Positions 4,877 to 37,379 of a stretch of 64,000 bases of DNA are shown here, in pieces (position 1 is the first letter of the stretch; the number at the start of each line of letters is the position of its first letter). The translations under genes and the position numbers were made by a program. The stretch covers positions 1,086,285 to 1,150,284 of the forward strand of contig NZ_JACHUZ010000013.1 of the NCBI RefSeq assembly GCF_019903425.1. The letters are read 5' to 3'. The notes beneath the pieces are model-generated. The model was not told the DNA's origin. It ran no database searches and worked only from the letters and a program-made list of their open reading frames with translations. Source of the stretch: Vreelandella halophila. GTDB lineage: Bacteria > Pseudomonadota > Gammaproteobacteria > Pseudomonadales > Oleiphilaceae.

Positions 4877-4888
4877 GGTAAGCCCCTT

Positions 4889-5336: not shown

Positions 5337-5432
5337 TACCCAGCCATGCCGCCCTTGTCGACACTGGGAGGTACGAAGCCTTCTCCATGAAGGCCCCGAA
5401 CTGACAAACAGAACAGGATTGAGGAGGCAGTG

Positions 5433-7397: not shown

Positions 7398-7403
7398 ACC
7401 ACG

Positions 7404-7460
7404 CTGTAAAAGCGGGCCTGCTCGCGATTGATGCGGAGCGCGAGCAAGCTCGCTCCTACG
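7404..7460. repeat. REP-like palindrome after acsA
   Basis: The right half carries the GCTCGCTCCTAC signature (reverse complement of GTAGGAGCGAGC) and the left half is a degenerate mirror. It begins just after the acsA stop codon and may act in mRNA stabilisation or termination. Confidence 0.7.
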
Positions 7461-7596
7461 GTCGGGAATCAAAAGGTTCCGCGGGAGCTTGGGCATTCAA
7501 TAGGAATTGCACAGCTTCCGTACAAGGACTATGTTCAGTGGGGCATCGGCGCGGGTCGGTGCCCCACTGCTGTTCTTAAACCAGGGAGCTAGGCTT

Positions 7597-7857
7597 ATGA
7601 AAGAATTCTTCTTGTTCAATGAGATGATCACACCCCGGATCATCACCTTCATCTACTGGCTGCTTCTGCTTGCGGCCCTTGTTGGCGGTCTGTCCGTCAT
7701 GGCCGGAGGCTTTGGTGGATTCACCTTTGGCAGCTTCCTTCAGGGACTGGCGACAATGGCCTTTGGTGCCCTCGGCGCACGGGTCTGGTCCGAGCTGTTG
7801 ATCGTGCTCTTCAAGATCAACGACAACCTGCGCGCGATGGCGGAGCGTGATACCTGA
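7597..7857 (+). CDS. DUF4282 small membrane protein
   Basis: This 86-residue protein has two hydrophobic segments (about 11-32 and 38-72) and begins MKEFFLFNEMITPRIITFIYWLLLL, typical of the DUF4282 family. A GGGAG ribosome binding site lies 8 bases before the ATG at 7597. The reading frame extends upstream, but without a plausible site. It ends 3 bases before the response regulator gene, so the two are probably co-transcribed. Function is unknown. Confidence 0.8.
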   Translation: MKEFFLFNEMITPRIITFIYWLLLLAALVGGLSVMAGGFGGFTFGSFLQGLATMAFGALGARVWSELLIVLFKINDNLRAMAERDT

Positions 7858-7860
7858 ATC

Positions 7861-8517
7861 ATGACAACCCTGATCGTCGCTGATGACCACCCGTTGTTCC
7901 GTTCGGCCCTGAAGGATGTGATCCGCCAGGAAGAGCCCGAAGCCACCCTCGAGGAAGCCTCGGATTTCGGCGACCTGCAGACCGTCATGACCCGGATCGG
8001 GGAGCCCGCCGTAGTGCTCCTCGACCTCCACATGCCCGGCGCGCATGGCTTCAGCGCCCTGCTGTTCCTCACCGCCCACTACCCGGACATCCCGGTGCTG
8101 ATGATCTCCGCCAATGAGCGCGACGACATCATCCGCCGCGCCGCCGACCATGGCGCCGCCGGCTTTATCTCCAAGAGCGCCAGCATGGAAGCCATCGGCC
8201 AGGCCATCCGTGGCGTCGCCCGTGGTGACTTCTGTTTCCCGGACGGCGTCGATCTCGCCGTGCCCGGCGTAAGCGAAGAGGAATCCGGCGTTGCCGACGC
8301 CCTCTCGGAACTCACTCCCCAGCAGTTCCGCGTTGCCACCATGATCAGCCAGGGCCTGCTCAACAAGCAGATCGCCTACGAACTCAACGTCACCGAAGCC
8401 ACGGTCAAGGCCCACGTGACCGAGATCTTCCGCAAACTCGGCGTCCACTCCCGAACCCAGGCCGCCCTCAAGCTGGGCCAGCTGGACCTCGCTGACGTCT
8501 CCCAGGAAGACTCCTGA
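7861..8517 (+). CDS. crbR: LuxR-type response regulator, CrbR/ErdR-like
   Basis: This 218-residue protein has an N-terminal receiver domain with phosphoacceptor D55 in VVLLDLHMPG, acidic residues D9/D10 (VADDHPLF) and a C-terminal LuxR/NarL helix-turn-helix (about 150-212; LTPQQFRVATMISQGLLNKQIAYELNVTEATVKAHV). Its position by acsA and the symporter genes, with a symporter-fused hybrid kinase nearby (9961-13458), identifies it as the CrbR/ErdR partner of CrbS/MxtR, which activates acetate use. The role is established for homologues and inferred here. The palindrome at 5321-5336 is its likely site. Confidence 0.82.
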   Translation: MTTLIVADDHPLFRSALKDVIRQEEPEATLEEASDFGDLQTVMTRIGEPAVVLLDLHMPGAHGFSALLFLTAHYPDIPVLMISANERDDIIRRAADHGAAGFISKSASMEAIGQAIRGVARGDFCFPDGVDLAVPGVSEEESGVADALSELTPQQFRVATMISQGLLNKQIAYELNVTEATVKAHVTEIFRKLGVHSRTQAALKLGQLDLADVSQEDS

Positions 8518-8597
8518 CCGATCTGACTGACGGGCAGGTCAATGTGTCTTTTTTAATCTTTGGTATGCTTTTCTGAGTCCAGCAATGAGCCTGTTTT

Positions 8598-8704
8598 CAG
8601 GGGGCGGGTGATGCTCGTAGGGAAACTCGGTCGCCATGGATGGTGACCGGTAGCCTACACGGATGTACTTGTGGCGGTTCCCGGAGAGCATCACCCGCCC
8701 CCTG
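8598..8704. repeat. branched hairpin element, type A copy 1
   Basis: A perfect 19-bp stem (8598-8616 with 8686-8704) encloses a 69-nt core. The core is clearly homologous to that of the element at 37134-37243 (shared CTCGGT, CCA.GGATGG, AGCCTACA, GTACTTGTGGCG.TTCCCGGA), but the outer stems of the two copies differ in sequence while each remains perfectly self-complementary. The core has its own hairpin around CCATGGATGG. It lies between the response regulator and the hydrolase gene. Confidence 0.85.
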
Positions 8705-8744
8705 GGCAGCGAACTCTCAGTCTTATCGCTACCCGGAGCCGGGA

Positions 8745-9881
8745 ATGTCAGCATCCATGAATCAACCCCTGACCAGCTTTACCAGAATCACCCGCAACGC
8801 CCGCCAGCGCTTTCTAAACCCGGAAACCCTGGTCCAGGCCGAGCAGACCCCCTACGATGTCATCTTCAATGACGACCTGGTCAGCGTGCGCTACTACCCA
8901 CCGCTGCGCGAAAACCACATCCCCGTGGGCGACGACGATACCCCCATGGCCGTCCAGCGCGCCACCCACAAAGTACCGCTGGTGCTGGTCGCCCCGCTGG
9001 CCGTGAACATGTCCATCTACGACCTGTTCCCCAACCGCAGCCTCGTCAGATACCTGCGCGCCAGCGGCTTCGAGCTTTACCTGATCGACTGGGGTACCCC
9101 AGGCTGGGACCACAACCACTTCGACATCGCCACCTACTTCGCCGACTACCTGCCGGAACTGCTCGACGAAATCCTGAAACACAGCGGCGCCAGCGAGGTC
9201 TCCCTCTACGGCTGGAGCTTCGGCGCCCTGTTCAGCTACTGCGCCGCCGCGCTGGACGAAGACAAACGCATCCGCAACCTCGTCCTGATCGGCAGTCCCT
9301 GCGACTACCACGCCAATGGCAGCATCGGTAAGCAGTACCAGCTGATCTCGAAATCCCTGAGCCTCCTCGAGAACACCCTTGGCTTCCGGGTCCACCAGAC
9401 CAAGCGCCGCTTCTGGCGCTCCCCGGGTTGGGCCAACGCCACCGCCTTCAAGCTGACCTCGCCGATCAGCAGCCTGCGCAACTACCTGGACCTGGTGCGC
9501 AACCTGCATTCCGAGGAATACATCACCCGCAACGCCACCCAGGGCGCCTTCCTCAACGACATGGTGGCCTACCCCGGTGGCGTTATCCAGGACACCGTTC
9601 AGTACCTGTGGGTGGACAACTGCACCGCGCACGGGGATCTCCCCATGCATGACGCCGACCATACGCTGAAGGACGTGACCTCGGACATTATGCTCGTCTA
9701 CGGGGATAATGACCCGCTGGTGACGCCCGAATGCAGCCGGGCGCTGGTGGACCAGGTCTCAAGCCGGGAAGTGGAGCAGGCACTGGTGCCCGGCGGCCAC
9801 ATGGGGATCCTCGCGGGCAGCGCCGCGCCCACAGACATCTGGCCGAAGGTTGTGCAGTGGCTTCAGAAACGCTCCGACTGA
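8745..9881 (+). CDS. PhaC-like alpha/beta hydrolase (class III PHA synthase relative with serine nucleophile)
   Basis: This 378-residue alpha/beta hydrolase resembles class III PHA synthases in length and layout. The nucleophile elbow reads YGWSFGALF, so the catalytic cysteine of true PhaC (G-x-C-x-G) is replaced by serine. The acid is probably in VYGDNDPLVTPE and the histidine in VPGGHMGIL followed by WPKVVQWL, which is the PhaC C-terminal pattern. There is no signal peptide, so it should be cytoplasmic. I chose the ATG at 8745 (GGAG 6 bases upstream); the ATG at 8757 is also possible. There is no PhaE, PhaB or phasin gene next to it. It could be a PHA-related hydrolase, depolymerase or acyltransferase. 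Polymerase activity is doubtful. Confidence 0.75.
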   Translation: MSASMNQPLTSFTRITRNARQRFLNPETLVQAEQTPYDVIFNDDLVSVRYYPPLRENHIPVGDDDTPMAVQRATHKVPLVLVAPLAVNMSIYDLFPNRSLVRYLRASGFELYLIDWGTPGWDHNHFDIATYFADYLPELLDEILKHSGASEVSLYGWSFGALFSYCAAALDEDKRIRNLVLIGSPCDYHANGSIGKQYQLISKSLSLLENTLGFRVHQTKRRFWRSPGWANATAFKLTSPISSLRNYLDLVRNLHSEEYITRNATQGAFLNDMVAYPGGVIQDTVQYLWVDNCTAHGDLPMHDADHTLKDVTSDIMLVYGDNDPLVTPECSRALVDQVSSREVEQALVPGGHMGILAGSAAPTDIWPKVVQWLQKRSD

Positions 9882-9899
9882 CCCGGGGTCGCATCAACC

Positions 9900-9957
9900 G
9901 TAGGAGCGAGCCCCGCTCGCGCTAGCCCCGCAATCGCCTGCAAGGCCGGCTCTTACA
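9900..9957. repeat. REP-like palindrome pair
   Basis: It begins GTAGGAGCGAGCC and ends CGGCTCTTAC, with GCTCGCG in the left half. It sits between the convergent ends of the hydrolase and hybrid-kinase genes, where it could act as a bidirectional terminator. Confidence 0.75.
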
Positions 9958-9960
9958 GGG

Positions 9961-12900
9961 TCATCGCCCCGGGCGGCGGCGCAACAGGCGCCGCAGGGTC
10001 AGGCGCAACGAGGCCGCATCCACTGGCTTGGCCAGGAAGCGGTAGCCCGCCTCCCGCACGGCGTTGCGGATGGGGTCGCTGTCGTCAGCACTGATGATCA
10101 GAACCGGCACCTTCGCCTCCCAGTTCAGCGTCAGCGCCTGTGCCACCGCCACGCCGGTCTCCTGGTCCAGGTGATAGTCGGCGATCACCAGATCCGGCGC
10201 CTCGGCCGGCCGTTTCTGCATGGCCTCACCAAGGGATTTGGCCGTGGTAACCCGGCAGCCGAACTGGGTCAGAAGGGCCTGCAGGCCCGCGAGCAGATGG
10301 GGCTCGTTGTCAATGCAGATCACCTGAAGGCCGCTCAGCTGTGGGTCCTCGGTCTGGGACTGATCTTTGCGGGTCTGCTCCGGGGTGCCCCGTGGTGTGG
10401 TCAGCGCGAACATGGAGCCCTGGCCCTGGATGGAGCGGCAGTCGATGGGGTGCTCCAGCAGGCGGGCGATGCGCATGGCGATCGGCAGGCCCAGACCCAG
10501 CCCCTGGACTTCACGGGTGGCGTCGGTATGGAGCCGCTCAAACTCATCAAATATGCGCTGCTGATCCGACTCGGCAATGCCCGGCCCGGTATCCCAGACC
10601 TGGATGCTCACCGACTGGGTGCTCTGGCGGCACCCGAGGAGCACGCGCCCGTCGCGGGTGTAGTTGATGGCATTGCTCAGGAAGTTCTGGATTACCCGCC
10701 GGAGCAGATGGGGGTCGGTACGGATCCAGAGCGAACAGGGCACATAGTCGAGCTCTATCCCCTTGCGCTCGGCGGTCATGCGGAATTCGTTGACCAGTTC
10801 CTCCAGGATGGCGCCCAGCTCCACATTGCGCACTTCCGGTTCCAGCCGCCCGGAATCCAGCCTGGAGATCTCGCGCAGGTGGCTGATCAGGGTCTCGGCG
10901 GAGGCCAGCGCCGAATCAATGTGGCGCAGCTCCGGGGCCGCCTCATTGCCATGCTGGCGCAGCAGGGTGGAGGACAGCAGGCGTGCCGCGTTGATCGGCT
11001 GCAGCAGGTCGTGGCTGGCCCCGGCCAGGAAACGGCTCTTGCTGGCGTGCACCTGGTGCAGTTCCCGCTCGATGCGCGCCCTGAGCTCATTCTCGTTCTG
11101 GAGGGATTCGTTGGCGGCGGACAGTTCCCGGGTCCTTTCGGCCACCCGTTCCTCCAGCGTATCCCGGGCCTCCTCCAGTTCCGTCATCACACGGTGGTAC
11201 TCGGACACATCGTTGTAGGCCGTTACATAGCCTCCAGAGGGAATGGGCTTGCCGCGGATCTCGATCACGCTGCCATCCGGCATATGACGTTCCAGCCGGT
11301 AGGGGTGGCCCGAACGCAGCATTTCCAGGCGCCGTTCCACGGCAGCATTGATGTTGTTGTCGCGTACGTCCGAGAGCAGGCCCCGGGCCGCGTTGTACTC
11401 ATAGATCCGCGCGATGGGGCAGCCCACATAGAGCAGCCGGGGCGGGTAGTTAAACAGGTTCTCGTACTGGCTGTTCCAGGCCACCAGTTCCAGGTTGCGG
11501 TCGACCACGCTGATCCCCTGGGGGACGTTCTCCAGCGTCGTCTGCAACAGGTGCCGCGAGAATTGGAGCTGCTCGGACGTGCCCCCCATCAGGTCCACAA
11601 TATCCTCCATCTGCAGGGGCGTCTGGCGCTCCAGCAGCCGGATGGCGCGGTGGGCGGAGGCGGCCCCGATGACCGAGCCCAGCTTGGATTCCGTGACCCG
11701 CACGGTGTAACGCGTGGCCTTGTCGAAGGGCAGCAGCCGCTGCTCCTGGCTCTGCTCCAGCTCCGCCCAGAGGCGGTCGGATTCCTCCTGGCCAAGGACA
11801 GGGCGGATCAGGCCGTGCAGCTGGTGCAGGGTGATCTCGGTGGCGGCCAGATCCTCATCACTGAGACCGTGACTGGGCATGGGGTCGATGAAGGCCAGGG
11901 CCTGGCGCTCGTCCAGGGCCGTGGCCCTGGAACCCCGGGAGACGAGGGTCATGACCAGCATATTGAGCCCCAGGCTCCAGACCACGCCGTGAGTCAGCGG
12001 ATCGAGGAAGTCGCCAAGGCCGAGCAGGTTCTCGGGCTGTAGCCAGCCCAGCCCGAACGGCCCCTGGGTGAGCCAGCCGTTGTCCGACTGCATGAGGACC
12101 GGCAGCAGCAGGGTGTAGAGCCAGGTCAGCGTGCCCGTGAGCAGACCGAGCAGGACACCATTGCGGTGAGCCCCGCGCCAGTAGAGCCCGGCCACCAGTG
12201 CCGGCATCAGCTGGGCACAGGAGGTGAAGGCCAGCAGGCCCATGTAGGACAGCCCCTCGGTAAAGCGCGCCGCCTGCTCCAGTATCCACCCCAGCAGCAG
12301 GATGCCCAGGATTGAGGCCTGGCGTACCTGGCGCAGCACCGCGCCCAGGTCACTGCGTGGCCGGTTAAGGCGTTCCCGGATGCGCAGGTACACCGGCATG
12401 AAGAGCTCATTGGAGATCATCAGTGACAGGGCGATGGTGGCCACCAGCACCATGGCGGTGGCGGCGGACATGGCACCCACAAAGGCAACGGCGGTCAGCC
12501 AGGGGTGACCGGTGATCGCCGGCAGGGCGAGGACATAGCTGTCGCCGGGGATGGCCATGCCGGCCAGGTGATGGCGCGCGGCCTCCACCAGCGGCAGTAC
12601 CATGAGCGCGAACAGCGCCAGATAAAGCGGGAACATCCAGCGCGCACAGCGGGCCGAGGCCTCGTCATGGTATTCCACCACCAGCACATGGAACTGGCGC
12701 GGCAGGCAGACAATGGCGAGAGCACTGACCAGAAGCTGGGCGTAGAAACCGGCGTCACCGAAGGTGGAAAAGGAGAACGGCGAGGTCTCGCCGAGAGGCT
12801 GCATATCGGTCTCGCCGGCCAGCAGCCAGATCGCGAAGCCGCCCAGCAGGAGGAAGGCCAGCAGCTTGACCGCCGACTCCGCAGCCACCACGGCCAGAAG

Positions 12901-26412: not shown

Positions 26413-27534
26413 TCAGCCGTAACCCCACATAAGGGCCAGGTTGAGTGAGGGCAGCACGTCCGGGACCAGGGTGTGCTGAACGCGGTAATCCTGCCCGCTC
26501 GTGTCGCGCCGCAGGGGGCCCAGGTAACGCTTGCCCTGGGCATTGAAAACGGCCTGGGCAATGGGGGATCTGGGACTGCGGCGCCTGTGCGTGACCAGCC
26601 CCGTCTCGCCATTCGCCAGCTGCACCAGCACACCCGGAGGGTAGGGCGTGAGCTGGCGGAACACCGCCTCATAGACGATCTGGTGTGGGTCTTCCGCCAT
26701 GGACGCCAGTATCTCGTCCATGGCGTGGTCCGCGCGGTAGCGGTTGCGGTAGGCGCGCTTGGTGATCATGGCGGTATAGCGCTCCGCCAGGGACAGCACC
26801 TTCGCTTCAACCAGAATGTCGTCACCGCTCAGGCCCTGGGGGTAGCCTGTCCCGTCAAAGCGTTCATGGTGCTGCTCCACAATTGCCAGTAGCACCTGCT
26901 GGTTGACGCCCGCCTTGCGCAGGGCACTGGCGCTCAGTTCCGGGTGCTTCTCGATGATCCGGCGCTGCTCGTCGGTCAGTTTGCGGTTGGCGTTGTTGAG
27001 CTTGTCCAGATACGGCAGCAGAGTGATGTTCGCCGTCAGAGCCGCCTGCAGCAGGATCAGGGTGCGGGTCTCGTCCAGCTCGAAATGGTAGGTCGCCAGC
27101 CAGCAGATGATGGCGTAGAACAGGGTCTGCTCATAGGCTGTGGGCTCCACCGCGTACACATGCACCAGCCCGATGCAGGCATCCGCATCCTGCTGGCACA
27201 GGTTCTGGATGCGCCGGGCGAGGTGTTCCAGGCGCTCGCTGGCACGGGCATCCGTGTTCACGATGCGCTCCAGGGTCTGCTCGAGTTCGTACAGCAGGAT
27301 CGAATACTCGGCAAAGGGACTGAAGCGCGGCGTTGCATCGTCCTGCCGGCGCTTCTCCGCCTGGCGCTGCGGCGGCTCGTACATACCCCGCTCATAGAGC
27401 CGCTCAAGCTGCCACTCGTTCTGGATCACATACCCCTGGGCCACCAGCAGGTTGCCGGTTTCATCATAGACCGGCCACGGCAATGGTTTGCCCACAGTCA
27501 GCAGCCCGGGGGCGAGCCGTACCAGATCGGACAT
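26413..27534 (-). CDS. HD-GYP-like domain protein with degenerate HD motif
   Basis: This 373-residue protein starts MSDLVRLAPGLLTVGKPLPWPVYDETGNLLVAQG at 27534 (GAGG upstream) and has a C-terminal HD-GYP-type domain (about 140-330). EKHPELSA and EQHHERFDGTGYPQGL match the second half of the family signature, but the metal-binding HD is replaced: the usual HDxGK region reads LTANITLLPYLDKL. It is therefore probably catalytically weak or inactive, perhaps a c-di-GMP receptor. About 180 bases separate it from the hybrid kinase gene. A longer reading to 27591 lacks a good start. Confidence 0.82.
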   Translation of the reverse strand: MSDLVRLAPGLLTVGKPLPWPVYDETGNLLVAQGYVIQNEWQLERLYERGMYEPPQRQAEKRRQDDATPRFSPFAEYSILLYELEQTLERIVNTDARASERLEHLARRIQNLCQQDADACIGLVHVYAVEPTAYEQTLFYAIICWLATYHFELDETRTLILLQAALTANITLLPYLDKLNNANRKLTDEQRRIIEKHPELSASALRKAGVNQQVLLAIVEQHHERFDGTGYPQGLSGDDILVEAKVLSLAERYTAMITKRAYRNRYRADHAMDEILASMAEDPHQIVYEAVFRQLTPYPPGVLVQLANGETGLVTHRRRSPRSPIAQAVFNAQGKRYLGPLRRDTSGQDYRVQHTLVPDVLPSLNLALMWGYG

Positions 27535-27606
27535 CGGAACCTCGTCTTGGTGCGTCAGAGGAGACAATAAACCACAGACGCAATAAAGCACAGAGTGGCG
27601 CCGGAA

Positions 27607-29079
27607 TCACGCCTCACAGGTGGGCCGGGTTTTCAGTCGCAGCCATGCCCGGATCCGGCGTGACAGGGCATCCACCCCGATGTTGAGCAGGGCCGTGATC
27701 AGGATCAGCACCATGGCGCGGTCAAAACGGATCTCCTGGATGGCGCCTTCCACGTAGAAGCCCAGGGTGGTGATGCCGAGAATGCCCAGGATGGCGGTCT
27801 CGCGCATGATGATCTCCCAGCGGTAGAACAGGAACGCCAGGAACGGGGGGTAGACCCTGGGTACCAGCTCCCAGGCGTAACGGTTGAAGCCGGTGGGCGC
27901 GCCTTGGCGCAGGGGCACCTCGTCGCTCATGCGCCCGACCAGATGGCCGATGATGCCGCCGTTGTGCAGTGCCAGTGCCACCACTGCCGGCAGCATGGAC
28001 GGGCCCCAGAGCTGGAGCAGGATGTAGGCCAGTATGTATTCCGGCGTGGAGCGGGCGATGACCAGCAGCACATGACCACTGGTACGCCGTACCGGACCCG
28101 CGAAATGCGTGGAGATGAGCGGGAAGGCCAGAAGCGCCAGGACGCCGGTGGCGACCAGTGCCATCTGGGTCAGCAGCAGTGTGTTCCAGATGCCTGGCAG
28201 TGCCTGGTTGGCGAGGATGTCCGTGAGCCAGGGCTGCAACCCTTCCCAGCCCTCGCCTTCGCGCAAGGGCTGGGGCACGATGTCCTGGGTGACGAAGCGG
28301 GTCACGTTGCCCCAGATGATGGGCATGCCTTCCCCCAGGAAGAAGGGGGCGGCAGCGAGGTAGACGGGCACCAGCCGTGGCCGCAGCCAGAGCCGCATGG
28401 TGGCGATCAGAAGGTAGAACACCAGCAGAAGCGCGCCCACCTGGGAGTAGTACCCCTGGGAGAACGCCGCCTCCAGGTGGAAGCCCAGGGTGGGAAGCCC
28501 GATGAACCCGAGAATGGCGGATGAACGCAGGCCACACTCCAGGCGGTAGGCGGTGTAGGTGCGCAGGTGCGGCCACGCCTCGGGCACCTGGGTGAAGAAG
28601 TAGCGCAGCAGCCGGCGCGTGTTCTTCGGGGCCGCCCGAGCGGGCAGGGGATCCGCCTCGTCGATGATCTCCGAGTAGACCTTGGCGAAGATGCCCGCAA
28701 AGGGGATGGCGATGGCCAGAACCCCGGAGAGCGGGTGGATGCCCAGACACTGCAGGAAGATCAGCGCCCAGAAGATCTCATGGATGGAGCGGATGAAGGC
28801 ACAGAACGCCCGCACCAGGCGGGAGCTGAAAACCGTGGTCAGCAGGAAACCGGCCACCGCGCCCAGCGCGACGCCAGTAAAGGCGTAGGCCAGGGTGCGT
28901 GTGAACGCGGTGAACAGCTCGTTGGTGGCCGTGAGATCCGGTGTGAGAAGCCCGTACAGCAGCCTTTCAAGTTCCTGCCAGGGGTTCAGCGTGGTGATGG
29001 CCAGATCCGAGAAAGGCAGGCAGGCCAGCGCCACACCGATGAATGCCAGGGTTGTAAGGCCGGTACGGGATCGAAGCAT
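27607..29079 (-). CDS. PhnE-like ABC permease, two fused domains (predicted selenium oxyanion importer)
   Basis: This 490-residue integral membrane protein contains two tandem binding-protein-dependent permease domains (about 1-245 and 265-490). Each has the EAA-type loop expected of PhnE/PtxC relatives (for example EIIDEADPLPARAAPKNTRRLLRYF and MSDEVPLRQGAPTGFNRYAWELVPRVYP). Phosphonate transporters usually have a single-domain PhnE dimer, so the fusion is noteworthy. It is encoded with an ATPase (1-base gap) and a binding protein and is divergent from the senB gene cluster. Selenium transport is inferred from that context and from the binding-protein clade. Confidence 0.82.
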   Translation of the reverse strand: MLRSRTGLTTLAFIGVALACLPFSDLAITTLNPWQELERLLYGLLTPDLTATNELFTAFTRTLAYAFTGVALGAVAGFLLTTVFSSRLVRAFCAFIRSIHEIFWALIFLQCLGIHPLSGVLAIAIPFAGIFAKVYSEIIDEADPLPARAAPKNTRRLLRYFFTQVPEAWPHLRTYTAYRLECGLRSSAILGFIGLPTLGFHLEAAFSQGYYSQVGALLLVFYLLIATMRLWLRPRLVPVYLAAAPFFLGEGMPIIWGNVTRFVTQDIVPQPLREGEGWEGLQPWLTDILANQALPGIWNTLLLTQMALVATGVLALLAFPLISTHFAGPVRRTSGHVLLVIARSTPEYILAYILLQLWGPSMLPAVVALALHNGGIIGHLVGRMSDEVPLRQGAPTGFNRYAWELVPRVYPPFLAFLFYRWEIIMRETAILGILGITTLGFYVEGAIQEIRFDRAMVLILITALLNIGVDALSRRIRAWLRLKTRPTCEA

Positions 29080-29080
29080 G

Positions 29081-29731
29081 TCAGTAGAGCGGCTGCAGGT
29101 CGGCGGTTGTCAGTCGGCCGCTGGGTTCATCCAGGGCAATGTGACCGTCCTGTATACCAATGATCCGGTCGGAATAGGCCAGTGCTAGATCCACATCGTG
29201 CAGTGCAATCACCGAGGTGGGATAGGCCTGTGACAGCGCGGCCATGACGCGCCGGGCCAGGGGGCCGTCCAGCGCGGAGACCGGCTCGTCCGCCAGCAAC
29301 AGGCTGCCCTGCTGGTAAAGCGCCCGTGCCACCGCCGTGCGCTGGCGCTGGCCACCGGAGAGTTCGCCAGCGGGTTCGCGCAGCTTATCCCCCAGCCCGA
29401 GCTCGTCCAGGATGCCCTGGATCTCGCGCCTGGGCTTTTTAAGGGGGAACAGCAGGTTGCAGAGGCTGTAGAGGACGGAGTGGCGGTCCAGCTGGCCCAT
29501 GTAGACGTTGTGGAACACCGAGAGGGTATCCACCAGCCCCAGATCCTGGGGCATGAAGGCTGTGCTGGCATCCGCCTCATCGTACAGCAGGCTGAGCAGT
29601 GTGGACTTGCCGGCACCGCTGCGGCCGACCAGCGCAACACGTTCCCCGGATGCCAGGCTGAGTGAGAGCGGGCCCAGAACCCGCTCTCCCCCGTAGCTGG
29701 CAGAAAGGTCGTTGACCGCCAGTATCGCCAT
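29081..29731 (-). CDS. PhnC-like ABC transporter ATP-binding protein
   Basis: This 216-residue ATPase has Walker A GRSGAGKSTLLSLL near 36, the Q-loop MPQDLG, the signature LSGGQRQRTAVARAL near 125-139, Walker B SLLLADEPVSALD and the H-loop VIALHDVD. It is a short single-domain subunit of the phosphonate/phosphite/selenium type. It overlaps the binding-protein gene by one base and is followed by the fused permease, forming a three-gene importer operon. Energises uptake at the inner membrane. Confidence 0.9.
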   Translation of the reverse strand: MAILAVNDLSASYGGERVLGPLSLSLASGERVALVGRSGAGKSTLLSLLYDEADASTAFMPQDLGLVDTLSVFHNVYMGQLDRHSVLYSLCNLLFPLKKPRREIQGILDELGLGDKLREPAGELSGGQRQRTAVARALYQQGSLLLADEPVSALDGPLARRVMAALSQAYPTSVIALHDVDLALAYSDRIIGIQDGHIALDEPSGRLTTADLQPLY

Positions 29732-30588
29732 CAGTCGAGCAGGCCCGTTTCCCTGCCAACCCGCTTGATGGTCTCGTAATCGTCGTTGCTGGCGGGGATG
29801 AACGAGGAACGCGGGAAGCTTTCCAGCAGCTCCGGGTCCTCCATGTCCAGCAGTGCCTGCTGGACCCGTTCCACGAAGCCGTCACCGAAGCGCTCATTCA
29901 CATCACCCCGGATGGTCCACTGGTAATCCGGGTAGGTGGGCGATTTCCAGATCACCTGGACATCGTCCGTATCCACCTCATCGTTCTCGACCATCTCCTC
30001 CCAGACGCTGTAGTTCAGGGCGCCGACCTGGTAGGAGCCGGATTCGACCAGCCGGGCGGTGCGGGTGTGGTTGCCACTGAAGCCGACGCGGCTGAAGACC
30101 TCACCCGGCGCCTGGTTGAAGCGCTCGCGGATATAATGCTCCGGCATCAGGCGCCCGGAGGTGGAGCCGCGTGACCCGAAGGTCAGGGTCTTGCCCTTCA
30201 CCGCTTCCGGCAGCTTATCCTCGGAGGGTTCAATGCCGGTGCTTTCATGGGCGATGAAATAGCTGCGGAACTCCTGGTCTTCCGCACCCTGGGCGATGGC
30301 CCTTGAGTCCGGTACTGCCTCGCGGGCGCGAACCCCGGAAAGGCCGCCGAACCACGCCAGCTGCACCTGGTTGTTGCGGAAGGTGGTTACTGAGGCCGCA
30401 TAGGATTTGACCGGGACAAACTGCACCGGCACGTCCAGCTCGGCTTCGAGGTAATCGGCCACTTTCGAGAAACGTTCTTCCAGACTGGTTTCGTCCTGGT
30501 CCGGGATGGCGGTGAAGTACAGTGTCGGCTCCGCCATGGCCGGCGTTGTCATCATAAGGGCCGCAATCAGGCCGGTGATCCATCGCAT
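29731..30588 (-). CDS. PhnD-like periplasmic binding protein, putative selenate/selenite ABC transporter type
   Basis: This 285-residue protein has a signal peptide (MRWITGLIAALMMTTPAMA) and a PhnD-type fold: LYFTAIPDQDETSLEERFSKVADYLEAELDVPVQFVPVKSYAASVTTFRNNQVQLAWFGGLSGV. The AIPDQD opening and the WFGGLSGVRAR stretch recall the clade described as putative selenate ABC transporter substrate-binding proteins, which co-occurs with selenium genes. GGAGA lies 7 bases before the ATG. It is first in the importer operon and divergent from senB (174 bases apart). The ligand (selenite, selenate or another oxyanion) is not shown by sequence; phosphonate or phosphite is the alternative, but no phosphonate-use genes are nearby. 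Confidence 0.82.
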   Translation of the reverse strand: MRWITGLIAALMMTTPAMAEPTLYFTAIPDQDETSLEERFSKVADYLEAELDVPVQFVPVKSYAASVTTFRNNQVQLAWFGGLSGVRAREAVPDSRAIAQGAEDQEFRSYFIAHESTGIEPSEDKLPEAVKGKTLTFGSRGSTSGRLMPEHYIRERFNQAPGEVFSRVGFSGNHTRTARLVESGSYQVGALNYSVWEEMVENDEVDTDDVQVIWKSPTYPDYQWTIRGDVNERFGDGFVERVQQALLDMEDPELLESFPRSSFIPASNDDYETIKRVGRETGLLD

Positions 30589-30674
30589 GGTAGTGTCTCC
30601 TCAGTCCTTGTTCGTTAGAAGGTAATGTAAACGTACGCCCCCGTAGCCGCGAGCGATCAGCAGCTGTTTACTGT

Positions 30675-30731
30675 GTAGGAGCGAGCCCCGCTCGCGATTG
30701 TCTCTGGATCACTTGCAAGGCAAGCTCCTAC
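30675..30731. repeat. REP-like palindrome pair in the phnD-like/senB divergent region
   Basis: A left unit GTAGGAGCGAGCCCCGCTCGCGAT and a right unit GCAAGGCAAGCTCCTAC face each other, 32 bases upstream of the senB start. It is the most complete form of the repeat seen in the window. Confidence 0.8.
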
Positions 30732-30762
30732 AGCAAGCGTCTACACCGGGAGGTCCGATCTT

Positions 30763-31743
30763 TTGCACATAACGCTCATTACCCCCGCCCCCCGCGGCTC
30801 CCGCGCTGGTAACCGTGCGACCGCGGAGCGCTGGGCGGCGCTGCTGCGGCGTGCTGGCCACCGGACGCGCATTATAACGGAATACGACGCCGAGCCCACG
30901 GACCTGCTGGTGGCGCTGCACGCCTGGCGCAGCAGTGAGTCAGTACGCCAGTACCGGGCGCATGCCCCCTTGGGGCCCTTGATTGTGGCGCTCACGGGCA
31001 CGGATATCTACCGTTTCCAGCAGACGCACCCGGAGGCTACCCGTTACAGCATGGCCGAGGCGGATGCCCTGATCGGGCTGCATGAGCGGGTGGCGGATGA
31101 CATTCCGAAAGAATTCCACAATCGCCTGCATACGATCTTTCAATCGGCGGAACCACTGCCCGGGCGCCGGCCTCCGGTACAGTCCCGGTTCGATGTGGTG
31201 GTCGTCGGTCACCTGCGTTACGAGAAGGACTCCCTGCGCACCGCCCGGGCTGCCCGCCAGGTGCCGCCGGAGTCCCGACTCAACGTGATCCAGCTGGGGA
31301 AGGCGCACAATGACCAGTGGCAGGCCCTAGCGGAGCAGGAGGCGCGGGAGAATCTGCGCTTCGACTGGAAGGGCGAGCTGCCCCGGTGGCAGGTGCGCCG
31401 GCACATGGCAAAGGCGCGACTGATGGTCATCAGCTCGGTGATGGAGGGGGGTGCCAACGTGGTGTCCGAGGCCTGCGTGGCCGGCCTGCCGGTGATCGCC
31501 TCGGCCATTCCCGGCAACGTGGGGCTGCTCGGCGGGGACTATCCCGGTTACTATCCAGTAGAGGACACCACCGCGCTGCGCGAGCAGCTTCTGCGCGCCG
31601 AAAACGAGCCGGAATTCCTGGCGGCCCTGCGGAGCCGCGTTGAAGCCCGGGCGCCCCTGTTCCGGCCGGAAACCGAGCAGGCGGCACTGGAACGGGTGGT
31701 CAATGCCGTCATGGACCAATACGGTAGCCCCCGGAAAACGTAA
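30763..31743 (+). CDS. senB: SenB-type selenosugar synthase (GT-B glycosyltransferase family)
   Basis: This 326-residue GT-B protein begins HITLITPAPRGSRAGNRATAERWAALLRRAGHR, matching the glycosyltransferase family that includes SenB. SenB joins selenophosphate-derived selenium to a UDP-sugar to make the selenosugar donor used in selenoneine formation. The C-terminal domain has SSVMEGGANVVSEACVAGLPVIAS, a nucleotide-sugar-binding E...SEA motif. The start is TTG at 30763, with GGGAGG 9 bases upstream and no better ATG. The SenA-like gene follows after 36 bases, which supports the assignment strongly. It is cytoplasmic. Confidence 0.88.
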   Translation: MHITLITPAPRGSRAGNRATAERWAALLRRAGHRTRIITEYDAEPTDLLVALHAWRSSESVRQYRAHAPLGPLIVALTGTDIYRFQQTHPEATRYSMAEADALIGLHERVADDIPKEFHNRLHTIFQSAEPLPGRRPPVQSRFDVVVVGHLRYEKDSLRTARAARQVPPESRLNVIQLGKAHNDQWQALAEQEARENLRFDWKGELPRWQVRRHMAKARLMVISSVMEGGANVVSEACVAGLPVIASAIPGNVGLLGGDYPGYYPVEDTTALREQLLRAENEPEFLAALRSRVEARAPLFRPETEQAALERVVNAVMDQYGSPRKT

Positions 31744-31779
31744 ACCCTGTCGAACTGTCTGCTATGGAGAACGCACGGG

Positions 31780-33138
31780 ATGAACGACCGCGAAAGCCTG
31801 ATCCAGGCCCTACACCATACACGGGACCGCGTTAAGGACCTGGTCTGCAGCCTGCGCGAGGACCAGCTCAGCGTTCCGTACCACCCGGGCGTGAACCCGC
31901 CGGTCTGGGAGATGGGCCACTCGACCTTCTTCTACGAGGTGTTCGTCCTCAACTGGCTGGACGGTACCCCGAGCTACGATCCCTCCATGGATGACCTCTG
32001 GGACTCCTTCCACATGGACCACGAGGACCGCTGGTCGAAGACGCTGTTTCCGTCGCGGGAGGATACCCTCGCCTACATGGACACCATCATCCAGCGCATG
32101 GAGGACCGCATCCGCAACCAGCCGCTGACGGATGAGGCGCTGTACCTGTACCGCTACGCCATCTACCACCAGAACATGCACGTGGAGTCCATGACGTGGT
32201 GCCGCCAGACCGTAGGTTACCCGGCCCCGCCGTTCGCGGAGCCCAAAGGGCTGACCGGGGAGGGCGTTGACCAGGACGCGCGCGGTGACGCAACCATCCC
32301 CGCCGGGCGCTACCTCATCGGCCTGCCGGCGAACCGGGATTCGGACGCCTACGCCACCGAGGATTTCGGCTTCGACAACGAGAAGCCCGCCTTCGAGGTG
32401 GACATGCCCGAGTTCAGCATCTCCCGGACCCTGGTGACCAACGGCGAGTTCCAGAAGTTCGTGGAGGAGGGCGGCTACGAGCGCCCGGAGTTCTGGAGCC
32501 AGGGTGGGCGCAAGTGGCTGGAGCGCGAGATCAACCTGAACTTCGGTTCCGGCGAGCCGCCGCTGATGGGCCGGCAGACGCATCCCTTCCACTGGCGCAA
32601 GCGCGATGGCCGCTGGTACGAGCGGGTCTTTGACCAGTGGCTGCCGCTGGAGCCGGGGCATCCGGTGAAGCAGATCAGTTACTGGGAGGCGGAGGCGTTC
32701 TGCGCCTGGGCCGGGCGGCGACTGCCGAGCGAGTACGAGTGGGAAGTGGCGGCCCTGGCCAACAAGCCGGGCGAGGAACGCCGGCGTTACCCCTGGGGCA
32801 ATGAGATGGATCCGGCGAAGCTGGATATGGATCAGCGCTACATGGGCCGTGTGCCGGTAACGGCGTTCCCGGCGGGTGAGAGCCCCTTCGGGTGCCGGCA
32901 AATGCTGGGCACGGTCTGGGAGTGGACGGGCAACCAGTTCATGCCCTATGACGGTTTCTCGGTGGATATGTATCCGTTCATGTCGACGCTGCAGTTCGCG
33001 ACGCACAAGACCACAAAGGGGGGCGGCTGTGCGGCCTCGTCCATGCTGATCCGCGGGACTTACCGGCAGGCGTATCATCCGGATCGGTGTGATGTTTATA
33101 CCGGGTTCCGGACGTGTGCTTTGTCGTCTCAGGACTGA
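31780..33138 (+). CDS. SenA/OvoA-N/EgtB-type iron enzyme forming a C-Se (or C-S) bond on histidine scaffold
   Basis: This 452-residue protein has an N-terminal DinB-like domain (about 1-160) and a C-terminal formylglycine-enzyme-like domain (about 170-450; GTVWEWTGNQF, IRGTYRQAYHPDRCDVYTGFRTCAL). The three-histidine iron site of EgtB/OvoA/SenA is visible: H47 in EMGHSTFF, and H130, H134 with E136 in HQNMHVE. EgtB and OvoA make C-S bonds; SenA makes the C-Se bond of selenoneine using the SenB selenosugar. Between senB and an OvoA C-terminal-type methyltransferase, it is best read as the C-Se bond enzyme of a selenoneine- or ovoselenol-type pathway. Whether it takes hercynine or free histidine is not decided by eye. 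A C-S enzyme (EgtB or OvoA) is the alternative. Confidence 0.85.
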   Translation: MNDRESLIQALHHTRDRVKDLVCSLREDQLSVPYHPGVNPPVWEMGHSTFFYEVFVLNWLDGTPSYDPSMDDLWDSFHMDHEDRWSKTLFPSREDTLAYMDTIIQRMEDRIRNQPLTDEALYLYRYAIYHQNMHVESMTWCRQTVGYPAPPFAEPKGLTGEGVDQDARGDATIPAGRYLIGLPANRDSDAYATEDFGFDNEKPAFEVDMPEFSISRTLVTNGEFQKFVEEGGYERPEFWSQGGRKWLEREINLNFGSGEPPLMGRQTHPFHWRKRDGRWYERVFDQWLPLEPGHPVKQISYWEAEAFCAWAGRRLPSEYEWEVAALANKPGEERRRYPWGNEMDPAKLDMDQRYMGRVPVTAFPAGESPFGCRQMLGTVWEWTGNQFMPYDGFSVDMYPFMSTLQFATHKTTKGGGCAASSMLIRGTYRQAYHPDRCDVYTGFRTCALSSQD

Positions 33139-33176
33139 GGGCGCGTAGCCTCTTATGCAATGACTTGGAATGCCTG

Positions 33177-33920
33177 ATGACCGACTTCTACGAAAGCGAT
33201 GAGCAACTCGGCCAGTACATGGACTTCCATTACGGCCCCGAGCACTTCGGCGTACCGAACTTCCCGAAAACCTGTGCCGAGCGCTGCCTGCAAGCCAGGC
33301 CCCGGGGTAACCGGGCCCTGGATCTGGGGTGTGCCACCGGGCGCAGCACCCTGGAGCTGGCGAGAGGGTTTGGGCATGTGCTGGGCATGGACCTCTCGCA
33401 TCGGTTCATCGATGCGGCGGAACGGCTGCGCCGGGATGGCGAGCTGACCTACAGCCTGGTTGATGAAGGCGAGATCGGTCACCAGGAGACCGCGTCCCTG
33501 GCCGAGCTCGGGCTCGCCGGGGAGGCAGCCCGGGTGTCGTTCGAGGAGTGTGATGCGGGCAATCTGGGGCCGGAGTACAGCGGCTATGACCTGATCTTCG
33601 CCGGCAACCTGATCGACCGCATGCCGAACCCCGGCCCCTTCCTGAGTGGACTTCGGGAGCGCCTGAATCCGGGTGGGGTGCTGGTGGTGACCTCGCCCTA
33701 CACGCTGTTGCCCGAGTTCACGCCGCGCGAAAGCTGGATCGGCGGTTATTACGATGCGGATGGTAAGCCGGTGACGGTGCTGGATGGTATGCGGGCGCAC
33801 CTGGAACCGGGGATGCAGCTTGCCGCCGAGCCGGAGGATGTGCCCTTCGTGATCCGTGAGACGCGGCGCAAGCACCAGCATACGCGGGCGCAGCTGACCG
33901 TCTGGGAGCGGAAGGACTGA
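33177..33920 (+). CDS. OvoA C-terminal-type 4-mercapto/selenohistidine N1-methyltransferase (stand-alone)
   Basis: This 247-residue SAM-dependent methyltransferase has motif I ALDLGCATGRSTLELA near 47-62 and matches the C-terminal domain of OvoA along its length: ESDEQLGQYMDFHYGPEHFGVPNFPKTCAERC at the start, DLIFAGNLIDRMPNP in the middle, and RETRRKHQHTRAQLTVWERK at the end. In OvoA this domain N-methylates the imidazole of 4-mercaptohistidine. Here it is a separate gene 38 bases after the SenA-like gene and in its operon, so the acceptor is probably a selenohistidine. The ATG at 33177 follows GGAA by 6 bases; the longer frame from 33114 overlaps the previous gene. There is no EgtD-type methyltransferase in the window. 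Confidence 0.85.
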   Translation: MTDFYESDEQLGQYMDFHYGPEHFGVPNFPKTCAERCLQARPRGNRALDLGCATGRSTLELARGFGHVLGMDLSHRFIDAAERLRRDGELTYSLVDEGEIGHQETASLAELGLAGEAARVSFEECDAGNLGPEYSGYDLIFAGNLIDRMPNPGPFLSGLRERLNPGGVLVVTSPYTLLPEFTPRESWIGGYYDADGKPVTVLDGMRAHLEPGMQLAAEPEDVPFVIRETRRKHQHTRAQLTVWERKD

Positions 33921-33926
33921 GCCGGC

Positions 33927-34508
33927 TCAGAAGGGCCAGTTGGTGACCAGCAGGTAGATGGCCCCCGAAGCCGCCAGGCCGGCGGCGATGATGACGATCC
34001 CGTCCCGGGTGCTGATGCCGATGGCGGCCAGGGAGATCGCCAGTGCGGGGGCAGCGGCCGCGAAGGGGATCAGTTCCAGCGGTATCATCGTCAGCCCGGA
34101 CACCGCGCAGGCCAGTAAGATGAGGCTGTTGGCCCAGGGGTGGGTGAGCAGTGACAGGCGGTGCGAAAACAGCCGGTCGATACGGCGTGTCACGGGCTGG
34201 GCCCGGTCAATGGCCCGGATCAGGTTTTGTCTGTGGATGCTGAGTTCGCGCAGGCGCCGGGGCACCCAGGGGGAACGCCGGCCGAGGCTGCCCTGGATGG
34301 CGATCAGGAAGATCAGGATGCCGCAAACGCTGGGTACGCCGGGTATGGCGCCGGTGGGCAGGAGCGCGAGCAGCGCCGGGGCGAGCAGAAGCGGCCCGAA
34401 GCCCCGGGATTCCAGGGCGGTGATGAGCGTATCCACCGGCACCTGTTCCATGTCCGTCTGCTCACGGACCCTCAGGAGGACATCCGTAATCCCCATTGAT
34501 TGGCTCAT
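33927..34508 (-). CDS. ExoD-family membrane protein
   Basis: This 193-residue protein has about four hydrophobic segments (LLLAPALLALLPTGAIPGVPSVCGILIFLIAIQ near 37-70; two or three after 120) and the ExoD pattern VPVDTLITALESRGFGPLLLAPALLALLP. ExoD proteins are linked to exopolysaccharide in rhizobia, but the biochemical role is unknown. It lies between the selenium methyltransferase gene (convergent, 6-base gap) and the selD fusion gene (same strand, 86 bases after that start region). It may be a bystander or a membrane partner of the selenium locus. Confidence 0.82.
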   Translation of the reverse strand: MSQSMGITDVLLRVREQTDMEQVPVDTLITALESRGFGPLLLAPALLALLPTGAIPGVPSVCGILIFLIAIQGSLGRRSPWVPRRLRELSIHRQNLIRAIDRAQPVTRRIDRLFSHRLSLLTHPWANSLILLACAVSGLTMIPLELIPFAAAAPALAISLAAIGISTRDGIVIIAAGLAASGAIYLLVTNWPF

Positions 34509-34594
34509 GCCGGCAACCGTGCTCCACCCCAGTGACTATGCGGGAATCCTACACGTTTTGGATCGCCGGAGCATGAGCGGCCCATTAAAAGCCC

Positions 34595-36868
34595 TCAGGG
34601 ATTGAGCAGGATCGGCTCCAGTGCCTCGCCTTGCTCCTTCACCCTGCCAATGATCGCCGTTTCCGGGTACCCCAGGGCCTTCAGTTCGGCTACACAGGCG
34701 TCCGCCTGGTCCGCCGGCACGCTCGCCAGCAGGCCGCCGGCGGTCTGGGGGTCGAAGGCCAGCGGGTAGCGCGGATGATTGACCACTTCCTCCTGGTTGC
34801 GGATGGCGCGGCGCAGGCGCACGTTGGCCGGCTGCAGTGAGCTGAGGATGCCGGAGGCGGCGGTTTCCTCGGCGCCGGGCAGCACCGGTATGGCGCTCAG
34901 GTCCAGTTCCGCGTCTACGCCCGAGGGGCGGGTCATCTCCACCAGGTGGCCGAGCAGGCCGAAGCCGGTCACGTCCGTGCAGGCCTTTGCACCGTGTTCA
35001 TGGATGCAGCGGGCCGCCTTCTGGTTGGAGACCAGCATGGAGGCCAGGGCCGAATCGATCCAGCGCCCCTTGGCCTCCAGGCGTGGATGGGCGGCGAACA
35101 GGGTACCGGTGCCGACGGGCTTGGTCAGGATCAGCACGTCCCCGGGCCTCATGCCGCCCTTGCTCATGACGGTGTCCGGGTCAATGTAACCGTTGGCGGC
35201 GAAGCCCAGGGCCAGCTCCTTGCCCTCGCCGGTGTGGCCACCGACAAGGGCGCAGCCAGCCTCATTCAGGGTCTCCACGGCGCCGGCCATCATCTGGTAG
35301 ACCACATCCTCCACCTTGGATTCCAGGCCGTAGGGCACGGTTGCCACGGCGGTGGCGCTCTGGGCCTCGGCGCCCATGGCGAAGAGATCCCCGAGGCTGT
35401 GGTTGGCGGCGACCTGGCCGAAGATGTAGGGGTCGTCGATAAAGGCGCGGAAGAAGTCCACGGTGTGGACCATGGCCATACCGTCCGGTACGCGCACCAC
35501 GGCGGCGTCGTCCGGCGCATGGAGCCCCACCAGCACATCGTCGCGCTCAATGGGCTGGAGGTTGTTCAGGGCCCGCGAGAGCACGGTGCTGCCCACCTTG
35601 GCGCCGCAGCCGCCGCAGCGCATGGCCACGGCGGAGATGGCCTGCTGGGCCTCTTCACTGCTCAGTGCGATGCCCGAGGTGGGGTCGTCCTTGCTGTCCT
35701 CGCTCATGGCCGGCAGGTTGTTGAACTTCGCCATGAAGCGCCGGTCGATCCAGTCCTTCCAGCGCCAGACCCACTCGCCCGCGAAGCCGATGGGCCCGCG
35801 CGAGGCCACGGCGTACTGGTCGCCGGTGCTGATCAGGGCCAGCCACTGTTTCTGCGGGTGGTAGTCCTTCAGTGTCTTGCCGTGCACGGCACGGCGCAGG
35901 TTCTCCGCCAGCGGCTTGCCCTGGCGCACGGCAAAGACGCCGGCCTTCTCGCGTGGGTGGTTGATCATGGTGGCGATGTCGCCGGCGGCGAAGATGTTGG
36001 GGTCCGTCACGGTCTGCAGGGTGTCGCGCACCCGGATGAAACCGCCCTCGTCGAGTTCCAGCCCGGTGCCGGTCAGCCATTCCGCGCCGCCGGCCTGGGT
36101 GACCCAGAGCACTTCGTCCGCCTCGAAGGTCGCGCCGCTGGAGGCCACCAGCTGGCTGTCGTTGACCTTCTCAATCCGCGTTCGTTCGTGAACGTTTACG
36201 CCCCTTTCCCGCAGAACGGACTCGAAGCGGCGGCGAACACCGTCGTTATGCGTGGGCAGGAGCTGCTCGGAGGCATTGAACAGGTGGAAGCGGGCGGCTT
36301 CCGGGTCCTTGCCCATGGCGCCCAGCTCATTGCGCAGGCGGTACTGCATGGCCAGCGTCAGCTCCACGCCCCCGGCACCACCGCCGACCACGGCCACATT
36401 GAGCTCGCCCTCATGGTTTTCCATGCGTTCCAGCAGGGTCTGCCAGCGGTTGTTGAAGCGGTTGATGGGCTTGACGGGCACGCTGTGGTCCTCGGCCCCG
36501 GCGACCTGGTCGACCCGTGGTGTGGAGCCGATGTTGATGGACAGCAGGTCGTAGGGAATGGCCGGGCGGTCGCGGCAGATGACGCGCTGGTTGGTGCGGT
36601 CGATGTCGATGGCTTCGCTGCGGTAGAAGCGCGCGCCGGCGAACTCGGCCAGGCGGCTGAGGTCGATGTGGACGTCGTCGTAGCTGTAGTGACCGGCGAT
36701 GTAGCCGGGGAGCATGCCGGAGTAGGGGGTGTGCGTGTCGCGGCAGATGAGGTTGAGGCGCACGCCGGGGATGGGGTTCATGGCGAAGTTGCGCAGTACG
36801 CCGACGTGGCTGTGGCCGCCTCCGATGAGGACGATGTCGCGGAGTACTGGCTGGTCTGGTTGGTCCAT
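34595..36868 (-). CDS. selD: FAD/NAD(P) oxidoreductase fused to selenide, water dikinase (SelD)
   Basis: This 757-residue fusion has an NDH-2/FCSD-like pyridine nucleotide-disulfide oxidoreductase domain (about 1-375; LIGGGHSHVGVL near 11, VAVVGGGAGGVEL near 155, AAGDIATM near 290) and a SelD domain (about 405-757). C421 and K424 in GGCGAK correspond to the catalytic Cys17 and Lys20 of E. coli SelD, and GLHAPDDAAVVRVPDG, HSLGDLFAMGAE and ALVGGHTGEG are family motifs. SelD makes selenophosphate from selenide and ATP. The fused oxidoreductase may reduce the selenium source to selenide, which is inference. It is the selenium activation step for the senB cluster. No selA, selB or selU was seen here. 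Confidence 0.93.
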   Translation of the reverse strand: MDQPDQPVLRDIVLIGGGHSHVGVLRNFAMNPIPGVRLNLICRDTHTPYSGMLPGYIAGHYSYDDVHIDLSRLAEFAGARFYRSEAIDIDRTNQRVICRDRPAIPYDLLSINIGSTPRVDQVAGAEDHSVPVKPINRFNNRWQTLLERMENHEGELNVAVVGGGAGGVELTLAMQYRLRNELGAMGKDPEAARFHLFNASEQLLPTHNDGVRRRFESVLRERGVNVHERTRIEKVNDSQLVASSGATFEADEVLWVTQAGGAEWLTGTGLELDEGGFIRVRDTLQTVTDPNIFAAGDIATMINHPREKAGVFAVRQGKPLAENLRRAVHGKTLKDYHPQKQWLALISTGDQYAVASRGPIGFAGEWVWRWKDWIDRRFMAKFNNLPAMSEDSKDDPTSGIALSSEEAQQAISAVAMRCGGCGAKVGSTVLSRALNNLQPIERDDVLVGLHAPDDAAVVRVPDGMAMVHTVDFFRAFIDDPYIFGQVAANHSLGDLFAMGAEAQSATAVATVPYGLESKVEDVVYQMMAGAVETLNEAGCALVGGHTGEGKELALGFAANGYIDPDTVMSKGGMRPGDVLILTKPVGTGTLFAAHPRLEAKGRWIDSALASMLVSNQKAARCIHEHGAKACTDVTGFGLLGHLVEMTRPSGVDAELDLSAIPVLPGAEETAASGILSSLQPANVRLRRAIRNQEEVVNHPRYPLAFDPQTAGGLLASVPADQADACVAELKALGYPETAIIGRVKEQGEALEPILLNP

Positions 36869-36912
36869 TGGTACCTCTTGAACGATGGTTTTCCGCCATG
36901 GAAACGGGCGCC

Positions 36913-37089
36913 ACTGGGGACGGCTCTCAGGGAAACGCTGTAAATACTTTTCAGCTGCGCGATCCTGCTCCGCTGAAAAGTCCTGTGTTTACATCCGTGT
37001 AAACCCGTTTGCGCTTATTCGCGCAAACCCCTGTACGCTGCTCTTCCGCCATCCATGGCTCCAGAGCTTCCCTGAGAGCCGTCCCCAGT
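36913..37089. repeat. branched hairpin element, type B variant with three internal hairpins
   Basis: A perfect 22-bp stem (36913-36934 with 37068-37089) encloses 133 nt that hold at least three further hairpins: CTTTTCAGC with GCTGAAAAG, GTTTAC with GTAAAC (36987-37004) and GTTTGCGC with GCGCAAAC (37007-37028). The inner edge (CTCAGGGAAACGCTGTAAA) and CATCCATGG recall the type B elements at 41.1 and 42.4 kb. It lies in the divergent region upstream of the selD fusion and the outer membrane protein; this 511-base region holds no gene. Confidence 0.8.
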
Positions 37090-37133
37090 ACCGCCCTGCT
37101 CTTTACTGTGGGCGGTAACTATTACTTCTGATC

Positions 37134-37243
37134 GGCGCCGGCGGGGAGTGCTTGGAGGCAAGCTCGGTGGCCACGGATGGCCACCGCGCAGCCTACATGG
37201 ACGTACTTGTGGCGATTCCCGGAAAGCACTCCCCGCCGGCGCC
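37134..37243. repeat. branched hairpin element, type A copy 2
   Basis: A perfect 20-bp stem (37134-37153 with 37224-37243) encloses a 70-nt core homologous to that at 8617-8685, including a 7-bp internal hairpin GGTGGCC/GGCCACC where the first copy has GGTCGCC/GGTGACC. The outer stem sequence is unlike that of the first copy. Confidence 0.85.
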
Positions 37244-37379
37244 TGGCAATTGATTCTGGTGCTTGTATACGCAGCATGGAAGCAACCTGATTCCTGGCAC
37301 TGTTAAAAGCGCCACGGAATCACCGGGCGCGCTATGGTATCAATGCCCCTCGCGATACAGCGACAGGGAGAACGATCGC

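Follow-up and report, generated by a model that had tools for sequence, protein, structure and literature searches.

A predicted ovoselenol biosynthesis locus in Vreelandella halophila and the possible cargo of its PhnCDE-like importer

We propose that positions 27607 to 36868 of a 64,000-nucleotide stretch of Vreelandella halophila DNA (the window) hold a locus for the biosynthesis of the selenium antioxidant ovoselenol, a selenium derivative of ovothiol (PMC12631010) that has been characterised in bacteria (PMC13188914). This assignment, which we make with high confidence from sequence, follows most directly from the iron enzyme encoded at 31780-33138, which is identical over 452/452 residues to PDB entries 8u41 and 8u42, both named 'Selenoxide synthase OvsA'. 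The original prediction, made from the letters of the DNA, had named ovoselenol as a known selenium analogue and had described an importer diverging from senB, followed by an iron enzyme, a methyltransferase and a SelD fusion; all of these are borne out as intact frames, with the models for SenB, SelD, the methyltransferase and the binding protein above cut-off. The interval contains 8 intact genes, and every gene named here is an intact open frame at the coordinates given. The biosynthetic core consists of the following genes.

30763 to 31743, plus strand: senB, selenosugar synthase (TIGR04348, 411.1 bits, cut-off 300)
31780 to 33138, plus strand: ovsA, iron-dependent selenoxide synthase acting on histidine (452/452 identical to PDB 8u41/8u42 OvsA)
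about 33177 to 33920, plus strand: ovsM, 5-selenohistidine N-methyltransferase (TIGR04345, 277.5 bits, cut-off 170; best solved match 9bxh OvsM, 292.1 bits); the ATG start was placed by hand count within the open frame
34595 to 36868, minus strand: pyridine-nucleotide oxidoreductase-SelD fusion, 757 residues (TIGR03169, 530.7, cut-off 310, and TIGR00476, 301.4, cut-off 125)

In the model that we favour, the oxidoreductase-SelD fusion would provide selenophosphate, from which SenB, using a UDP-sugar, would form a selenosugar. OvsA would then attach the selenosugar, as a selenoxide, to the imidazole carbon of histidine, presumed loss of the sugar would leave 5-selenohistidine, and methylation of a ring nitrogen by OvsM would yield ovoselenol. 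SelD would most likely receive a selenium oxyanion, in our view selenite, from the neighbouring ATP-binding cassette (ABC) system, for all cellular uses of selenium. The activities of OvsA, OvsM, SenB and SelD are known from the work of others, and the biosynthetic core is an already published pathway to which the locus adds no new enzyme. Our case for the ovoselenol locus consists of the gene identities, the identity to OvsA, family membership and co-occurrence. From these we infer that the organism produces ovoselenol, and we likewise infer the removal of the sugar, the part played by the oxidoreductase half and the cargo of the importer.

The iron enzyme, its partners and the product

The window enzyme carries H47 and the motif HQNMHVE, the latter beginning at residue 130, both as first noted in the original prediction. 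OvsA reportedly forms the carbon-selenium bond on histidine, and the PDB names agree with this. A further entry, 8ux5, is the OvsA chain with the changes M401Y, Q430N and A431F (read off the alignment), which are the residues found at these places in the SenA structure 8ryz, and M401, Q430 and A431 are present in 21/21 OvsA rows, that is, in the window protein and in 20/20 named relatives. Directly beside ovsA lies a stand-alone methyltransferase of the OvoA C-terminal type, which among solved structures scores highest with OvsM 9bxh (292.1 bits), ahead of an OvoA (257.0) and an OvoM (225.0). SenB of the window matches the SenB structures 8jjq, 8fbx and 8k5u and retains, by alignment and hand count, all four of the residues that PMC10891094 describes as setting donor choice (N20, T23 and E231) or serving catalysis (K158), here N17, T20, E228 and K155. 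The oxidoreductase-SelD fusion is the sole SelD above cut-off in the genome, and it scores 473 on the 'fusion_not_SelD' model TIGR04369, under the cut-off of 700.

The same genes travel together in other genomes. We counted them in 97 relatives, 61 of which are from the same family, and in a phylum sample of 349 genomes; the members of both samples are related by descent, which the Fisher tests applied to them ignore. OvsA, called present among the relatives at 60% identity or more, occurs in 30/97 genomes, including G017, where it is a contig-end fragment, and G057, where it is split in two pieces. SenB is above cut-off in 31 genomes, comprising 30/30 of those with OvsA and 1/67 of the others, namely G061, which has SenA, and a stand-alone OvsM-type gene is found in 29/30 OvsA genomes against 0/67 others. 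From 165 confirmed loci the best 80 were kept as the named loci, which are largely from Marinobacter. Near ovsA these have SenB in 7 cases, a SelD fusion or SelD-like frame in 8 and OvsM in 36; several of these loci are on short contigs, where neighbours may be missing through contig ends. The co-occurrence is therefore not merely that of one inherited cluster. In G052, importer, SenB and SelD fusion stand together at a locus that lacks ovsA (L216). The split match in G057 (C1:3806913-3808240) is in two pieces that overlap, which would fit a broken gene or a faulty assembly; SenB and an OvsM-type gene are present in that genome. The genomes G016, G024, G045 and G047 carry an OvoA-type fusion frame of 714-741 residues in addition to OvsA, and may co-produce ovothiol and ovoselenol.

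Some observations weigh against the assignment to ovoselenol. The OvsM of the window is not identical to the solved OvsM 9bxh. G047 has OvsA and SenB, yet its only TIGR04345 domain above cut-off belongs to a 720-residue OvoA-type frame; with no stand-alone OvsM-type gene above cut-off in that genome, this fusion may methylate instead. Finally, the NCBIfam SenA model NF041186 accepts the window enzyme, narrowly (428.1, cut-off 420), and so gives it the name that it would bear if this were a selenoneine locus whose enzyme acts on hercynine. That reading is very improbable in our judgement. The enzyme is identical to OvsA, and the model is passed by 4/4 OvsA proteins tested, the other three (L232, L234 and L123) scoring 434-438 against 511.7 for the true SenA of G061, so that it does not separate the two. 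Automatic annotation would therefore call OvsA a selenoneine synthase and can over-count selenoneine producers. No egtD was found within the interval, the remaining genome not having been searched, whereas egtD adjoins SenA in G061, a genome of the same order. There, at positions 1786-10785 of locus L215, importer, SenB, SenA (511.7 bits, cut-off 420), EgtD as the next gene (404.9, cut-off 290.9) and SelD fusion stand together, with no OvsM-type gene above cut-off in the genome. One selenium supply unit is thus seen with two endings, EgtD and SenA for selenoneine or OvsA and OvsM for ovoselenol. We reject the selenoneine reading because the enzyme is identical to OvsA, its partner is of the OvsM type, and G061 shows, by contrast, what a SenA-EgtD locus looks like.

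An enzyme of the EgtB or OvoA type, working with sulfur and making ergothioneine or ovothiol, is more improbable still, to the point of being negligible. It would share the fold family, and the methyltransferase model is named for OvoA; the iron enzyme scores well under the relevant cut-offs, with 259.8 on the EgtB model TIGR03440 (cut-off 360) and 117.1 on the OvoA N-terminal model TIGR04344 (cut-off 400), and it is accompanied by SenB in 30/30 genomes, besides being identical to OvsA. We built a tree of 38 rows, comprising the window protein, 20 of the 80 named loci, 15 further genome rows and 2 PDB rows. All 21 OvsA rows fall on a single, fully supported branch that is separate from OvoA and EgtB. 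Eight genome rows bear the label EgtB, of which L218 was checked against the model, and the label OvoA denotes fusion to a TIGR04345 domain. The EgtB group is weakly supported (78/50), the two SenA rows stand apart from each other (2 changes) and the PDB rows of SenA and EgtB are long branches, so that the tree separates OvsA from OvoA and EgtB without fixing where it joins the other groups. A Pfam search of the genome gave no other FGE-sulfatase-type enzyme, and thus no second enzyme of the EgtB or OvoA type. We reject the sulfur reading on the models, the tree and the co-occurrence. The phylogeny called for in the original prediction thus sets OvsA on its own branch, apart from OvoA and EgtB, and the proposal made there of a carbon-selenium bond on histidine, N-methylation and a methylated selenohistidine rather than selenoneine agrees with the OvsA identity, the OvsM match, the co-occurrence across the 97 genomes and the tree. 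Outside the main Marinobacter and Halomonadaceae group, Limnobacter (Burkholderiaceae; L122 and L123) has OvsA homologues of 54-55% identity. No OvsA relatives on viral contigs were found among 6 stretches matching a pattern.

Gene arrangement and selenium use

The plus-strand genes senB, ovsA and ovsM, separated by gaps of just 36 and 38 bases, look like a single transcription unit because of this spacing. A scan of 27500-37300 for sigma-70 sites found 0 against 1.6 expected in shuffles, and a terminator scan of the same region found 3 against 4.4 expected. No Rfam family above its gathering score and no tRNA gene was found in the 64-kb window. One further gene lies between ovsM and the SelD fusion.

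33927 to 34508, minus strand: ExoD-family gene (PF06055, 1.7e-44)

It is confined to the closest relatives and is near ovsA in 2/80 named loci; we set it aside as a member of the pathway and regard it as probably a bystander.

Elsewhere in the genome a selenouridine synthase is above cut-off (340, cut-off 219.75). No SelB is above cut-off in the genome, the best matches (185.3, cut-off 242.25) being two equal copies that we take as elongation factor Tu. As far as tested, SelA and tRNA-Sec not having been searched for genome-wide, this genome uses selenium for ovoselenol and tRNA selenouridine but not for selenocysteine.

The importer and its cargo

What remains of interest in the locus is the importer, for which it offers a concrete candidate, with solved structural relatives, for selenium uptake. 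Its genes, diverging from senB-ovsA-ovsM, lie on the minus strand at 27607-30588 in the order binding protein, ATPase, permease.

29731 to 30588, minus strand: PhnD-type substrate-binding protein of family TIGR04553, 'putative selenate' (404.1 bits, cut-off 250)
29081 to 29731, minus strand: PhnC-like ABC ATPase (PF00005, 2.1e-23; TIGR02315 best at 160.2 bits, under the cut-off of 266.1)
27607 to 29079, minus strand: two-domain PhnE-type ABC permease in a single chain (two TIGR01097 stretches, 209.6 bits, just under the cut-off of 216.7)

The original prediction had called this importer dedicated to the pathway, a claim that does not hold. Among the relatives, a TIGR04553 binding protein is above cut-off in 52/97 genomes, all of which (52/52) have SelD and 22 of which are without SenB; its gene is at most 10 kb from a SelD gene in 44/52, including 18 of those 22. 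G054 lacks both SenB and OvsA, and there the genes for binding protein, ATPase and permease lie directly 3' of the fusion gene (L217). The importer family thus goes with selenium use at large, tracking SelD and not SenB or OvsA. Around ovsA in the 80 named loci there are a few weak ATPase and binding-protein matches (26-33% identity), probably of other transporters.

Selenite resembles phosphite in being a pyramidal anion with three oxygens. The solved structures nearest to the window binding protein are 7s6g and 5lq5, both of picocyanobacterial PhnD1, a protein studied as a phosphorus binding protein, and both score above the cut-off of 250 bits on the 'putative selenate' model TIGR04553, at 337.6 and 300.8. 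According to PMC10284923, PhnD1 binds phosphite with low micromolar affinity in Synechococcus, for which values are given there, and sub-micromolar affinity in Prochlorococcus, phosphate or methylphosphonate being bound more weakly; the affinity of the Synechococcus protein for phosphite is at least ten-fold that for phosphate, and binding of hypophosphite was not measurable, from which its authors infer a need for three oxygens in a trigonal arrangement. The same source places the PhnD1 gene in 97/97 sequenced picocyanobacterial strains. Two Synechococcus strains were tested there, and neither could live on phosphite or methylphosphonate when given no other phosphorus; previous work, it adds, had not seen PhnD1 induced by phosphorus starvation, and its authors favour a constitutive phosphate transporter. 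Its screen tried phosphate, phosphite, hypophosphite and methylphosphonate one by one, along with commercial cocktails, and no word starting with 'selen' occurs in its main text. A putative SelD homologue with an NADH dehydrogenase-like N-terminal extension is described for Prochlorococcus and Synechococcus in PMC1273633.

We put forward the following model tentatively, at somewhat less than even confidence. The PhnCDE-like family may be the long-missing dedicated bacterial selenite importer, reading the three-oxygen face common to selenite and phosphite and feeding SelD and every use of selenium, in which case PhnD1 would in reality carry selenite, destined for the NADH-dehydrogenase-like SelD fusion that picocyanobacteria also have. 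That selenite is the true cargo of the TIGR04553/PhnD1 family is suggested by the link to SelD, the kinship to PhnD1 and its ligand residues, the phosphite paradox, the cyanobacterial SelD extension and the likeness of selenite to phosphite. If true, the model would resolve the paradox that picocyanobacterial PhnD1 binds phosphite in organisms without phosphite use.

Against a selenite cargo stands the measured fact for PhnD1, which is the binding of phosphorus compounds. The importer may instead carry phosphite, phosphate or phosphonate, its place beside selenium genes being secondary; we consider this a serious possibility, though less likely than not. In its favour, 7s6g and 5lq5 belong to the phosphite binders measured in PMC10284923, and the direct ligand residues are kept in the window protein. 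Moreover SelD is common without TIGR04553, in 20/72 SelD genomes among the relatives and 83/107 in the phylum sample, where 5/11 SenB genomes also lack TIGR04553 and 2/26 TIGR04553 genomes lack SelD, all of which counts against a necessary role. A phosphorus cargo is harder to reconcile with a family that, among the relatives, occurs only with SelD and mostly near its gene, and that in the phylum sample (TIGR04553 in 26 of 349 genomes) has SelD in 24/26 against 83/323 of the genomes without it. Related PhnD-type proteins below the cut-off have no clear link to SelD, with a weak tendency of 9/14 against 10/30 (p 0.10) in a control from which G001 was excluded because contig ends divide its copy, and the inability of the two Synechococcus strains to grow on phosphite or methylphosphonate likewise speaks against phosphorus.

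The selenite model has forerunners and competitors. The NCBIfam name of TIGR04553, 'putative selenate', is itself an earlier proposal of a selenium cargo. In the open full-text literature, outside which most subscription papers lie and earlier proposals are possible, the substrate of this importer family is shown nowhere and no link between PhnD, selenium and SelD was found. The part of PMC13077682 that mentions a 'selenate ABC transporter' merely cites the annotation and guesses at export. YedEF, proposed for selenium on its co-occurrence with SelD, is a rival importer described in PMC11097638, in which none of five putative Methanococcus transporters is required for selenium use and, to its authors' knowledge, no specific selenium transporter is known.

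Comparison with known systems

The window is closest to the published ovoselenol pathway of OvsA and OvsM with SenB and SelD: OvsA is identical, an OvsM-type gene adjoins it and SenB and SelD are present, the difference being that its OvsM departs from 9bxh. With the selenoneine pathway (SenA, SenB, SelD/SenC and EgtD) it has SenB and SelD in common, as well as a carbon-selenium enzyme of the same fold, and in G061 importer, SenB and SelD fusion surround SenA and EgtD just as they surround OvsA and OvsM here; it differs in having OvsM where the selenoneine pathway has EgtD, and in the residues M, Q and A of OvsA at places 401, 430 and 431, where SenA 8ryz has Y, N and F. OvoA of the ovothiol pathway shares the type of methyltransferase (TIGR04345), but in OvoA the two activities are fused, whereas in the window they are on separate chains, and the window iron enzyme falls well short of the cut-off of the OvoA N-terminal model and sits on a different branch.

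For the importer the comparison is with picocyanobacterial PhnD1. PhnD1 and the window protein alike pass TIGR04553, and the seven ligand residues Y44, S124, T125, S126, H156, D203 and Y204 are identical in both, as are D11 and N174. The two proteins differ in overall sequence, 114/263 aligned residues being identical, and at two positions that bind a buried water in PhnD1, where T65 and S123 are replaced by S and G in the window protein. They differ as well in setting, the picocyanobacterial genes adjoining tesA according to PMC10284923, where those of the window stand beside the genes for SenB, OvsA, OvsM and the SelD fusion.

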